DNA of 51,315 nt from positions 1 to 51,315 of the forward strand of contig NZ_QEIO01000022.1 of NCBI RefSeq assembly GCF_003336425.1, written 5' to 3'. A model generated the notes under the pieces. The model did not search any database. It saw only the letters and a list, made by a program, of their open reading frames with translations, and was not told the DNA's origin. Source of the DNA: Marinitenerispora sediminis (GTDB lineage: Bacteria > Actinomycetota > Actinomycetes > Streptosporangiales > Streptosporangiaceae). Each line of letters starts with the position of its first letter. The stretch's first letter is position 1. Shown here in pieces: positions 5,483-8,773 of the stretch. The translations under genes were made by a program, and so were the position numbers.

Positions 5483-8400
5483 GTGGTCTTCCACGCTGAT
5501 CTACATATTCACTCCAAGTACTCACGGGCTTGCAGCAAGGATTGCGACCTGGAGCATCTCGCCTGGTGGGCGGCCCGCAAGGGCATCTCGGTGGTGGGCA
5601 CGGGTGATTTCACTCACCCCGCGTGGCGCGAGGAGCTGCGGGACCTTCTGGTTCCCGCCGAGCCGGGCCTGTTCCGCCTGCGGCCGGATATCGAGGCCCG
5701 GATCGCGCGGACGCTGCCCCCGATCTGTCGGAAACTTCCGCGGTTCATGCTCTCCGTGGAGATCTCCACCATCTACAAGCGGGCGGAGCGCACCCGAAAG
5801 GTGCACCATTTGCTGTACGCTCCCACGATGGCGGCGGCCGAAGCCATCACCGCTGATTTGGCGAAGATCGGGAATCTCGCCTCGGACGGCCGGCCCATCC
5901 TCGGGCTGGATTCACGCGACCTGCTGGAGATCACGCTCGCCAGCGACCCGGGCTCCTATCTGGTCCCGGCCCACGTGTGGACGCCGTGGTTCTCGGCGCT
6001 GGGGTCGAAATCCGGCTTCGACGCCATCGCCGACTGCTACGCCGACCTCGCCGGCCACGTCTTCGCGGTCGAGACGGGCCTGTCCAGCGATCCGGCGATG
6101 AACTGGATGGTGTCGTCGCTGGATTCCTACACCCTCGTCAGCAATTCCGACGCCCACTCACCGCCCATGCTGGCCCGCGAGGCGACCCGCTTCGACACCG
6201 ACCTGGACTACTACGCGATCCGGCGGGCGCTGGAGACCGGCGAGGGATTCCGGGGATCGGTAGAGTTCTTCCCGGAGGAGGGCAAATACCACCTCGACGG
6301 GCACCGCAAGTGCGACGTCCGATTCGAGCCGGAGACGACCCGGGAGCACGGCGGCCGCTGCCCGGTGTGCGGTAGGCCGCTGACCGTCGGCGTTTTCCAC
6401 CGCGTGCACGAACTCGCGGACCGGGCGGAGGGCTACCGTGTTCCGGGCGCCGCCGATTTCACCAATCTGGTGCCGCTGCCGGAAATCGTCGGGGAGATCC
6501 TCAGAGTCGGGCCCAAGAGCAAGCGCGTCCAGGGCGAGGTCGCTCGCGTCGTCGCCGCCCTGGGTTCGGAACTCGACATCCTCGCCACCACTCCGCTGGA
6601 CGAGGTGACGAGAATCGGCGGCGAACGGCTCGGCGAGGCGATCTCGCGGCTGCGCCGGGGCGCCGTGATCCGCGAAGCCGGGTACGACGGCGAATACGGC
6701 ACCATCCGGATGTTCGAGCCCGGCGAGCTGTCCTCCGGACGAGGGCTCACCCTCTTCGACCACCCGGAAAGCGCGCCCGCGCCCCGGACCCGCGGTTCGG
6801 CGCGGCCCGCCCCCGGCACGCCTCCGGGCACCGGCCGGCGGCGTTCCGCGGGCGACGCCGACGGCGCGTCCGCCGGGGAGGGCACCGCGGCCCCCGGCCT
6901 CTTCGACCCCGTCCCGGAGCCCGGGCCCGCCGGCGGCGCGGACGGCCGCGCCCCCGCCGAGCCGGCCGAGGGCGGCACCGCGGACCCGACGCTCTTCCCG
7001 TCCGCTCCGGACGGCGGCGACCTGCGGCGCCCCCAGGGCCTGCTGGACGGCCTCGACCCCGACCAGCGGGCGGCGGCGGAGCGCCCGGGCGGCCCGCTGC
7101 TCATCGTCGCCGGGCCGGGCACCGGCAAGACCCGCACCGTGACGCACCGCATCGCCCACCTCGTCGCCGAGCGCGGCGTTCCCCCCGAGGACTGCCTCGC
7201 CATCACGTTCACCCGGCGGGCCGCCGAGGAGCTGTCGGAGCGGCTGAGTGCGCTGCTGGGCGAGCGCGCCGGGCGGATGACGGTCACCACCTTCCACGGC
7301 CTCGGCGCGCGCATCCTCCGGGAGCAGCACGGGCGGGTGGGGCTGACCGAGCACTTCCGGATCGCCGACGAGGCCCGCCGCGCGGAGATCGCCCTGGAGG
7401 TGGCGGGCTCCGACTCCGAGGCGCGCCGGCTGCTGGCCCGGCGCGACGCCGGGGCCGCGGCGGCCGAGGACACCGCGCTCCGCGACTTCGAGAAGCGGCT
7501 GCGCGACCATGACCTGGTCGACTTCGGCGACCTGCTGGCGCTGCCCGTCCGGCTGCTCGGCGCCGACCCCGACCTCGCGCGCGGCTACCGTGAGCGGTGG
7601 CCGTGGATCAGCGTGGACGAGTACCAGGACGTCGACGAGACGCAGTACACCCTGCTGCGGCTGCTCACGGCCGCGGACGGCAATATCACCGCGATCGGCG
7701 ACCCCGACCAGGCGATCTACGGCTTCCGCGGCGCCGATGTCGGGTTCTTCCTCCGCTTCACCGAGGACTTCCCCGCGGCCGAGACGGTGCGGCTGACCCG
7801 CAACTACCGCTCGAACGCCACGATCGTGTCGGCCGCCGTCCAGGCCATCGCACCGAGTTCGCTGGTGCCCGGCCGGGCGCTGCGCGCGGTGGGCGACTTC
7901 ACCGACCCGCCGCGGATCGGGGTGCACGCGGCCGCCGACGAGCGGGCCGAGGCCTCGTTCGTGGCCCGCGCGATCGACCGGCTGCTCGGCGGCACCTCGT
8001 GGCACTCGCTCGACAGCGGACGGGCCAGCGGTGAGGCGCACGACGGCCTCTCCTTCGGCGACATCTGCGTCCTCTACCGCACGGACGCGCAGAGCGCGGC
8101 GGTCGTCAGCGCGTTCAACACCGCCGGGGTGCCGTTCCAGAAGCGCTCACACGACCGGCTGCTGAACCGCCCGGGGGTGCGGCTGGTGGCCGACGAGCTG
8201 GCGCACCACCCCGAGGGGCCGGTCGCGGAGCGGGTCCGCGCGGCGGTCGCGCTGCTCGCCGAACGGCACGCCGGCGACCCGGAGCTGGTCACCGACCTGC
8301 GCGGCGCCGGCGAACTCGTGCTCCCGCTGGCGGCCCGGTGCGGCGCGGACCTGCCGGAGTTCCTCTCGGCGCTGGCGCTGGGCGCCGAGGTGGACGCCCT

Positions 8401-8773
8401 GGATCCGCGGGCGGACCGGGTGGCCCTCCTCACGCTGCACGCGGCCAAGGGACTGGAGTACCCGGTGGTGTTCCTGCTGGGGTGCGAGGACGGGTTGCTG
8501 CCGTTCCGCTTCCCCGGTGCGCGGCGCGACGACTTCCCCGGTGCGCGGCGCGACGACGAGGACGAGGAGCGGCGGCTGTTCTTCGTGGGCGTGACCCGCG
8601 CCCAGCACCGCCTCTACCTGTCGCGGGCGCGGCGGCGGACCCGGCGCGGCACCGAGGAGGAGATGCGGCCCTCGCCCTTCCTGGCCGCGATCGACGCGGG
8701 CCTGACCATGCCCGTCGACGAGGAGTCGGCGGCGCGCAGGCGTCCGAGGGACCGCCAGCTGCGGCTGCTGTGA
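5483..8773 (+). CDS. Endonuclease Q-like PHP nuclease fused to UvrD/PcrA-type helicase
   Basis: A 1096-residue two-module DNA repair protein. Residues 1-415 match the TIGR00375/EndoQ family: PHP metal site H8xH10, D42 (GTGDFTHP), E93 (SVEIS), H108-H109, H164 (PAHVW), D223xH225 (SNSDAH), then a zinc site with C277, C293 and C296 (CPVC). EndoQ nicks DNA 5' of deaminated bases. A Pro/Ala/Gly-rich linker (about 415-530) leads to an SF1A helicase with Walker A GPGTGKT (K549), Walker B DEYQD (712-716), GDPDQAIYGFRGA and motif VI GVTRAQHR; its 2B region looks short. GTG 5483 is chosen because GGAGG lies about 9 bases upstream and the EndoQ N-terminus starts there. It is convergent with argA, 16 bases apart. 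Confidence 0.85.
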   Translation: MVFHADLHIHSKYSRACSKDCDLEHLAWWAARKGISVVGTGDFTHPAWREELRDLLVPAEPGLFRLRPDIEARIARTLPPICRKLPRFMLSVEISTIYKRAERTRKVHHLLYAPTMAAAEAITADLAKIGNLASDGRPILGLDSRDLLEITLASDPGSYLVPAHVWTPWFSALGSKSGFDAIADCYADLAGHVFAVETGLSSDPAMNWMVSSLDSYTLVSNSDAHSPPMLAREATRFDTDLDYYAIRRALETGEGFRGSVEFFPEEGKYHLDGHRKCDVRFEPETTREHGGRCPVCGRPLTVGVFHRVHELADRAEGYRVPGAADFTNLVPLPEIVGEILRVGPKSKRVQGEVARVVAALGSELDILATTPLDEVTRIGGERLGEAISRLRRGAVIREAGYDGEYGTIRMFEPGELSSGRGLTLFDHPESAPAPRTRGSARPAPGTPPGTGRRRSAGDADGASAGEGTAAPGLFDPVPEPGPAGGADGRAPAEPAEGGTADPTLFPSAPDGGDLRRPQGLLDGLDPDQRAAAERPGGPLLIVAGPGTGKTRTVTHRIAHLVAERGVPPEDCLAITFTRRAAEELSERLSALLGERAGRMTVTTFHGLGARILREQHGRVGLTEHFRIADEARRAEIALEVAGSDSEARRLLARRDAGAAAAEDTALRDFEKRLRDHDLVDFGDLLALPVRLLGADPDLARGYRERWPWISVDEYQDVDETQYTLLRLLTAADGNITAIGDPDQAIYGFRGADVGFFLRFTEDFPAAETVRLTRNYRSNATIVSAAVQAIAPSSLVPGRALRAVGDFTDPPRIGVHAAADERAEASFVARAIDRLLGGTSWHSLDSGRASGEAHDGLSFGDICVLYRTDAQSAAVVSAFNTAGVPFQKRSHDRLLNRPGVRLVADELAHHPEGPVAERVRAAVALLAERHAGDPELVTDLRGAGELVLPLAARCGADLPEFLSALALGAEVDALDPRADRVALLTLHAAKGLEYPVVFLLGCEDGLLPFRFPGARRDDFPGARRDDEDEERRLFFVGVTRAQHRLYLSRARRRTRRGTEEEMRPSPFLAAIDAGLTMPVDEESAARRRPRDRQLRLL
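8510..8557 (+). repeat. 24-bp perfect in-frame tandem duplication in the helicase
   Basis: Two identical 24-base copies in direct contact (8510-8533 and 8534-8557) encode FPGARRDD twice, just before the conserved EERRLFFVGVTRA motif. The reading frame is kept. Confidence 0.95.

Follow-up and report, generated by a model that had tools for sequence, protein, structure and literature searches.

What would a bacterium gain by building a damage-specific endonuclease and a DNA helicase into one polypeptide chain? The question is raised by a gene of the actinobacterium Marinitenerispora sediminis, located in a 51,315-nucleotide stretch of contig NZ_QEIO01000022.1 (assembly GCF_003336425.1), which was analysed as a whole and is hereafter called the window. 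A sequence-only reading of this DNA had described the gene product as an endonuclease Q (EndoQ)-type nuclease fused to a UvrD/PcrA-type helicase and had proposed a self-contained machine for the excision of deaminated bases. We found that the fusion is real and more general than that reading thought, and that the reading missed a clamp-type tail, a second motif containing Leu-Phe (LF), a short 2B region, a spread over nine phyla and the co-occurrence with uracil-DNA glycosylase (UDG) and endonuclease V (EndoV). Our preferred explanation, which we hold with moderate confidence, is that the protein is a clamp-tethered nick-and-unwind enzyme for the repair of deaminated bases and apurinic/apyrimidinic (AP) sites. 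No description of an EndoQ-helicase fusion was found in the open-access literature.

One frame encodes a complete EndoQ domain and a complete helicase motor

The fusion gene is part of an uninterrupted forward open frame spanning 5378-8773. Because the frame opens four, three and zero residues before the aligned start in the related loci L005, L064 and L073, respectively, translation probably begins at the GTG at 5483 and not at 5378. The 1096-residue product comprises, in this order, the EndoQ domain (residues 1-415), a linker (about 416-516), the helicase (517-1084) and a short tail ending in QLRLL; both domains are complete and conserved, in agreement with the sequence-only reading. An AlphaFold model gave a mean predicted local distance difference test score (pLDDT) of 84.5 and a predicted template modelling score of 0.59, which suggests that the domains are individually well defined but that their mutual placement is not. 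The linker is predicted to be disordered, as had been read from the letters (pLDDT below 50 over residues 420-515), and in 71 homologues it varies freely in sequence and in length, with 46-151 residues between the matched ends.

Residues 1-412 match Pyrococcus furiosus EndoQ (PfuEndoQ, 5zb8) with an E value of 5.9e-49 in phmmer (36% identity across 377 aligned positions), and the modelled residues 1-417 superpose on 5zb8_B with Z 43.2 and a root-mean-square deviation of 2.4 Å over 381 aligned residues. The EndoQ metal ligands noted by the sequence-only reading were recovered in the phmmer alignment: all 72 fused rows keep the equivalents of PfuEndoQ D6, H10, E76, H84, H139, E167, D193 and H195, and 70 of them also keep that of H8. 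Likewise, the equivalents of H139, G169 and S171, residues reported to exclude normal T and A in PfuEndoQ (PMC8307549), are kept in all 72. A four-ligand zinc site is also predicted, although the description of that site as Cys-rich needs amending, since its first ligand is His in the window protein and Cys in PfuEndoQ, which has four Cys. The profile TIGR00375, an NCBIfam hypothetical equivalog, was matched significantly (152.7 bits, 1.8e-44; 157.5 bits for the domain alone), but its cut-off of 326.6 bits was not reached. We therefore assign the N-terminal half, by sequence, to EndoQ from a bacterial group outside the TIGR00375 cut-off. The nick made by EndoQ leaves 3'-OH and 5'-phosphate ends (PMC4357722).

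The helicase half matches PF00580 (223.3 bits, E 6e-66) and PF13361 (112.2 bits, E 4.8e-32), both above their gathering scores. PcrA (1pjr) was matched at E 8e-75 in a sequence search of the PDB and was also the first Foldseek match, while the first structure by Z was Deinococcus radiodurans UvrD (4c2t_B), on which residues 517-1084 superpose with Z 45.1 and 3.4 Å over 534 aligned residues. The equivalog cut-offs for PcrA and UvrD were missed (TIGR01073, 369.1 versus 911.2 bits; TIGR01075, 297.2 versus 1144.45 bits); by the NCBIfam cut-offs the motor is UvrD-like, neither PcrA nor UvrD. GajB, RecB, HelD, SLFN and others also came up in the structure comparison and in PADLOC, but any UvrD-like motor would give such matches and they were disregarded. 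In an alignment of 54 rows, made of the window protein and 53 of the 71 homologues, there is no variation at the Walker A residues G544, P545, G546, G548, K549 and T550, at Walker B or at residues belonging to motifs III, IV, V and VI (among them K549, D712, E713, Q743, R776, K989 and R1039), so that the main motifs of superfamily 1A (SF1A), all present as in PcrA, UvrD and Rep, are as the sequence-only reading had them.

The fusion differs from PcrA, UvrD and Rep in the attached nuclease, in having no C-terminal domain after the motor and in a shorter 2B region. The distance from an RT[DGN][AS]Q landmark to motif V is 119 residues in the fusion; the PcrA of the same genome (L107) has 221 and the UvrD2-like protein (L108) has 128. 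Its median is 126 in the 43 of 72 rows where it could be measured. The 2B region of the fusion is thus about 100 residues shorter than that of the genome's PcrA. Judged by sequence, the 2B stretch of PcrA containing VPKRGIGDR is absent from the fusion helicase, and a G[IVL]G string occurs in just 8 of the 72 rows, in contexts unlike that of PcrA. Because the genome carries separate genes named, from reading of their sequences, as PcrA, UvrD2-like and AdnB-like, the fusion helicase is an extra, dedicated motor.

The fusion is kept in nine phyla and has split and stand-alone relatives

An EndoQ-domain scan of the genomes of 84,980 species returned at least 573 relatives among at least 595 pattern matches. 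The best 80 loci were examined, a set that is biased towards the query and contains many metagenome bins. Both halves lie in one frame in 75 of them; three loci hold a stand-alone EndoQ gene (L077, L079, L080) and two are ended by the contig (L022, L031). Of the 75 fused frames, that of L045 is interrupted within the helicase and four others are truncated at the 3' end. By the labels of the records, nine bacterial phyla have this architecture, and its retention as a single frame in so many related loci (75 of 80) shows that it is no chance read-through. The long, disordered linker and two genomes that do encode two genes could suggest a gene-model artefact, in which an internal start or processing yields two proteins from one frame; in view of the single frame maintained across nine phyla despite a freely varying linker, this is extremely unlikely.

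Lineage surveys, each of which used TIGR00375 and included genomes already known as carriers, revealed how fused and stand-alone forms are distributed. In Actinomycetota, 9 of 396 genomes match, the own genome included, and six of these have the fused form (open frames of at least 1101 residues with the helicase), the others being one short frame (527 residues, open at the locus end) and two weak matches. The alphaproteobacterial class of the L077 genome contributed 5 of 387 (three fused, one stand-alone, one weak). Matches were found in 16 of 282 genomes from the phylum of L047 (12 fused, two split, one stand-alone, one cut) and in 17 of 288 from the phylum of L072 (six fused, five stand-alone, four short lower-scoring frames, one fragment, one weak). 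In the window's own family 51 of 100 genomes match, with 38 open frames of at least 876 residues, nine stand-alone genes and four undecidable cases; the helicase is present in all 25 long frames examined besides that of the window. For the nine stand-alone genes of this family (L185-L193), a match to the helicase half was not found within the 14 kb examined. Because such stand-alone relatives exist, the helicase is dispensable in some lineages.

A quick tree of the EndoQ domain groups the rows mostly by phylum, with Myxococcota rows scattered; its root is unsure because the PfuEndoQ outgroup sits on a very long branch. Within the fused set, the three stand-alone proteins L077, L079 and L080 take up separate places, as would be expected if the helicase had been lost more than once. 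In a 1.5 Mb genome from the class of L077 (G618, L091/L213; locus GC about 43%), the fused protein groups with Elusimicrobiota, and transfer or contamination is possible there.

Two genomes from the phylum of Polyangium (L177, L178) carry a split form, in which adjacent same-strand endoQ and helicase genes overlap by ATGA. The separate EndoQ proteins end in QISLFGGAA and QMGLFG and the separate helicases in QLKLF and QLRLF. A frameshift as the origin of the split form is unlikely, given the ATGA overlap in both genomes and the clamp-type ends on both separate proteins. This arrangement supports a shared function of EndoQ and helicase, and we infer a shared task from the coexistence of split and fused forms of one pair, which is its usual sign.

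We also considered that EndoQ does the work and that the helicase half serves chiefly to tether or load it, its unwinding lying outside the pathway. The EndoQ half is indeed the better conserved of the two among related loci, stand-alone relatives lack an adjacent helicase and 2B is short. A mere tether is nevertheless disfavoured because it would not need the helicase motif residues that are invariant in the 54 rows, and we regard this explanation as unlikely.

Clamp-type motifs follow both domains

The tail of the protein resembles a beta-clamp-binding peptide, for which the motif Q-phi-x-[L/M]-[F/L], with Ile tolerated at the end, has been described (PMC11139829). A strict pattern matched 61 of 72 tails, with the frameshifted L045 scored as a miss. 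A loose pattern, Q-x-x-[LM]-hydrophobic, which was framed after the tails had been inspected, matched all 71 tails other than L045 and 24 of 24 representatives below 62% identity. Among controls, the loose pattern was found in 3.1% of shuffled tails, in 0 of 497 windows from residues 430-509 and in neither of the two tails of the genome's own PcrA and UvrD2-like proteins. Tail-proximal residues are poorly conserved except for a basic stretch, and clamp-type ends elsewhere read QLxLF.

We then turned to genomes fetched later, where 19 of 20 loci hold a complete fused frame. The loose pattern matched 16 of these 19 and the strict pattern 12 (shuffles, 2.1% and 0.9%, respectively). One locus, L216, is no new case because its EndoQ row is identical to that of L028; without it the loose count is 15 of 18. 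The proteins lacking the motif are L208, L211 and L212, of which L211 and L212 end in QADLQPFLPGLR in place of a clamp-type tail.

A second candidate site, LTLFD, lies right after the EndoQ core. Its L424 and F425 are conserved in at least 90% of the 54-row alignment, and [LM]F occurs within 45 residues past the core in 116 of 139 rows (fused and stand-alone, some genes counted twice); in the 23 rows without it, four are missing because the core pattern was not found. At this place the two split EndoQs have a canonical clamp motif, and many Micromonospora have QETLF. In the window's family, seven of the nine stand-alone EndoQs stop exactly with ALF or TLF, at the point where the fusion has its LF motif. 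LTLFD is therefore probably a degenerate first clamp-binding motif, and the LF motif may represent an ancestral clamp site of EndoQ that has degenerated in many fusions.

These motifs suggest that the fusion protein binds the clamp. Such binding has precedents: PCNA interacts with the C-terminus of archaeal EndoQ and thereby stimulates the enzyme, the C-termini of bacterial EndoQ homologues carry clamp-type motifs (PMC4858679), and the beta clamp activates actinobacterial NucS, whose end is of the KLRLF type (PMC8228993, PMC11109965). A domain search of the fusion protein gave no polymerase, flap-nuclease or ligase match. Because clamp-type motifs are conserved and these matches are missing, the fusion is better seen as one part of a replication-linked pathway, and the earlier description of a self-contained machine is not supported.

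Carriers examined already possess other genes for deaminated-base repair

The 38 carriers examined for other enzymes acting on deaminated bases were the own genome plus those of 37 among the 80 loci; 35 have the fused and three the stand-alone form. UDG-superfamily genes are present in 38 of 38, and replacement of UDG was rejected on this ground. EndoV was matched in 23 of the same carriers, the own genome included, with 6 of the 23 best matches being weak (about 1e-8 to 1e-12); replacement of EndoV is unsupported. The presence of these genes implies a pathway that runs beside base excision repair. The notion that such an enzyme is useful in a high-GC genome, put forward by the sequence-only reading, fails on the carriers themselves, which include the Endomicrobiellum loci L064, L075 and L076 at 30-37% GC.

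With uracil already served by UDG in all carriers tested, the same machine might mainly act on something else, for example on AP sites, ribonucleotides, mismatches or oxidised pyrimidines; the activity of PfuEndoQ does extend to AP sites and to some oxidised pyrimidines (PMC8307549, PMC11354406). This is quite unlikely in light of the base-excluding pocket residues, which are invariant in all fused rows.

A role in defence, with EndoQ as a sensor-nuclease that attacks foreign DNA rich in uracil or altered bases and a helicase that spreads the damage, would account for the patchy distribution. In PADLOC the C-terminal half is matched by helicase models of GajB and DRT, and a review mentions an antiviral role of Bacillus EndoQ (PMC8307549). 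However, the PADLOC helicase matches (best 25 of 52) are those expected from any UvrD-like protein, and no PADLOC model matches the EndoQ half. The Gabija system (GajA-GajB) likewise combines a nuclease with a UvrD-like helicase, but GajA is a TOPRIM nuclease and a separate protein. Furthermore, the EndoQ domain had 0 matches in 50,697 phage records, and a plasmid search (E at most 1e-20) gave 75 records, of which the 30 listed match the helicase region and not EndoQ; a mobile or phage origin was rejected on the same evidence. Together with an EndoQ tree that follows mostly phylum and with replication-clamp-type motifs that are better suited to housekeeping repair, these results make defence an improbable explanation.

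A proposed model for clamp-tethered nicking and unwinding

Based on these findings, we propose the following working model for the nick-and-unwind enzyme. The EndoQ domain would flip out uracil, hypoxanthine, xanthine or an AP site and cut the strand immediately 5' of the lesion, producing a 3'-OH and a downstream strand that begins with the lesion. The SF1A motor, expected to move 3' to 5', would follow the intact template in the direction in which synthesis proceeds and strip off the strand with the lesion, starting at its 5' end. Meanwhile a polymerase held on the clamp would extend the 3'-OH, and repair would be completed by a flap nuclease and a ligase. The QLRLL tail, and in some lineages also the LF motif after EndoQ, would dock on the beta sliding clamp and thereby place nicking and unwinding at freshly made or nicked DNA. 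Loading of the motor in the alternative way would unwind the good 3' end, and loading on the intact strand is what repair would need.

Rep and PcrA act by the same intact-strand loading in rolling-circle replication, where, in the pairs RepD-PcrA and gene A protein-Rep, a nick is followed by an SF1A helicase that displaces the 5'-end strand ahead of the polymerase. These pairs are unlike the fusion in that they consist of two proteins, use a sequence-specific origin nick and serve replication, not repair. The 2B region restrains Rep, UvrD and PcrA monomers, and the short 2B may lack the restraining part.

Coupling of incision to unwinding, as suggested by the sequence-only reading, is the most economical interpretation, and the split pair with its ATGA overlap supports the shared function; the biochemical side of the claim, from activity and substrate range to helicase polarity, the coupling itself and the later repair steps, is expected from the domains and their arrangement. 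More tentatively, we consider possible a widespread, so far undescribed one-chain bacterial nucleotide-incision repair pathway in which EndoQ nicks at the lesion, two clamp peptides occupy both pockets of one beta-clamp dimer and a 2B-reduced motor supports strand-displacement synthesis beside UDG repair.

Several observations weigh against the clamp-tethered repair enzyme. Because all 38 carriers already have UDG-superfamily genes, its role may be minor or special. The distribution is patchy (9/396 and 5/387 in the two surveys above), and stand-alone EndoQ relatives exist without a helicase match nearby. The tail motif is missing from 3 of 19 later-fetched fused proteins, and among 71 rows, 47 have L or I as the last residue of the motif and 17 have F, which binds slightly better (PMC11139829). 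The short 2B is not special to the fusion, as the genome's UvrD2-like helicase has one too. Sites of the LexA (actinobacterial and alphaproteobacterial) or PafBC type, searched with consensus patterns, were not clearly enriched within 300 bases upstream in 72 rows, and SOS control was discarded on this ground. After removal of 19 near-duplicates, most of them from Micromonospora, clustering of the neighbouring frames of the remaining 61 loci revealed no partner gene conserved across phyla among the 25 largest clusters, which consist of the fusion itself, shadow frames and actinobacteria-confined or generic genes such as an ABC-transporter-type ATPase (9 loci). Finally, nicking and unwinding by the fused members are themselves predictions.

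Features of the gene and its surroundings

Table 1. Features of the fusion gene and its product (positions in the window; residue numbers refer to the window protein).
Feature	Position	Strand	Details
EndoQ-UvrD fusion gene	5483..8773	+	1096 aa, GTG start, stop 8771-8773
Shine-Dalgarno-like GGGAGGG	5468..5474	+	8 nt ahead of GTG 5483; read from sequence
EndoQ (PHP nuclease) domain	5483..6727	+	residues 1-415; phmmer, model superposition, residue mapping
EndoQ metal/catalytic residues			D6, H8, H10, E93, H108, H164, E197, D223, H225; mapped on PfuEndoQ alignment
EndoQ base-pocket residues			H164, G199, S201; equivalents of PfuEndoQ H139, G169, S171
EndoQ zinc site			H274, C277, C293, C296; 72/72 fused rows; predicted metal site
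Disordered linker	6728..7030	+	residues 416-516; predicted, pLDDT <50 over 420-515
LTLFD, LF motif right after EndoQ core	6746..6760	+	residues 422-426; no Gln in window protein
UvrD/PcrA-type SF1A helicase domain	7031..8734	+	residues 517-1084; Pfam, PDB match, model
Walker A (motif I) GPGTGKT	7112..7132	+	residues 544-550
Short 2B region	8159..8398	+	about residues 893-972
C-terminal QLRLL, beta-clamp-binding-type peptide	8756..8770	+	residues 1092-1096; putative clamp ligand by pattern

About 950 bases upstream of the fusion gene and oppositely oriented lies an Lsr2 nucleoid-protein gene (4084-4527, minus strand). A 94-residue minus-strand frame with a TTG start (4636-4920) resembles, by reading alone, a small membrane protein with one transmembrane span and a tail of low complexity. 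Farther away, in an 852-residue minus-strand frame (12823-15378), matches to FAD_binding_2 and Succ_DH_flav_C mark an L-aspartate-oxidase-like part, after which come both quinolinate phosphoribosyltransferase domains; judged by these domain matches, the frame encodes a NadB-NadC-type fusion. In a 1690-residue open frame (18262-23331, minus strand), two stretches match the bacterial PH domain bPH_2; a smaller gene probably lies inside this long frame.

Relation to known repair enzymes

The fusion protein shares its fold and its catalytic and pocket residues with PfuEndoQ. Known EndoQs, from P. furiosus, Thermococcus, Methanosarcina and Bacillus pumilus, are described as stand-alone proteins, the archaeal forms having a C-terminal PCNA peptide, whereas here a helicase is attached and the clamp-type peptide follows it; the His as first zinc ligand and the score below the TIGR00375 cut-off are further differences of the window protein. 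In the available portions of the EndoQ literature (PMC8307549, PMC11354406, PMC6202378, PMC4357722, PMC3820547, PMC7690668) the fusion is not described. EndoMS/NucS of Actinobacteria and Archaea is comparable in being an endonuclease specific for lesions or mismatches and in carrying at its C-terminus a clamp peptide of the form [E/K][L/Y][T/R]LF (KLRLF in Streptomyces), but it makes double-strand breaks and has no helicase, and its fold is unrelated to that of EndoQ. Together with the clamp, EndoMS/NucS also acts on deaminated substrates (PMC11109965).

For the step that follows the EndoQ nick, strand displacement by a polymerase together with Fen1, or an exonuclease, has been proposed (PMC4357722). 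The fusion with its motor, and the two genomes with overlapping genes, name a candidate for this step that is testable with one protein. EndoQ has been held to be mainly archaeal, with some limited bacterial groups (PMC6202378), a picture that is altered by the spread of the EndoQ-helicase architecture over nine bacterial phyla. The clamp-type tail, in turn, ties the fusion to the principle known from archaeal EndoQ with PCNA and from bacterial NucS with the beta clamp.

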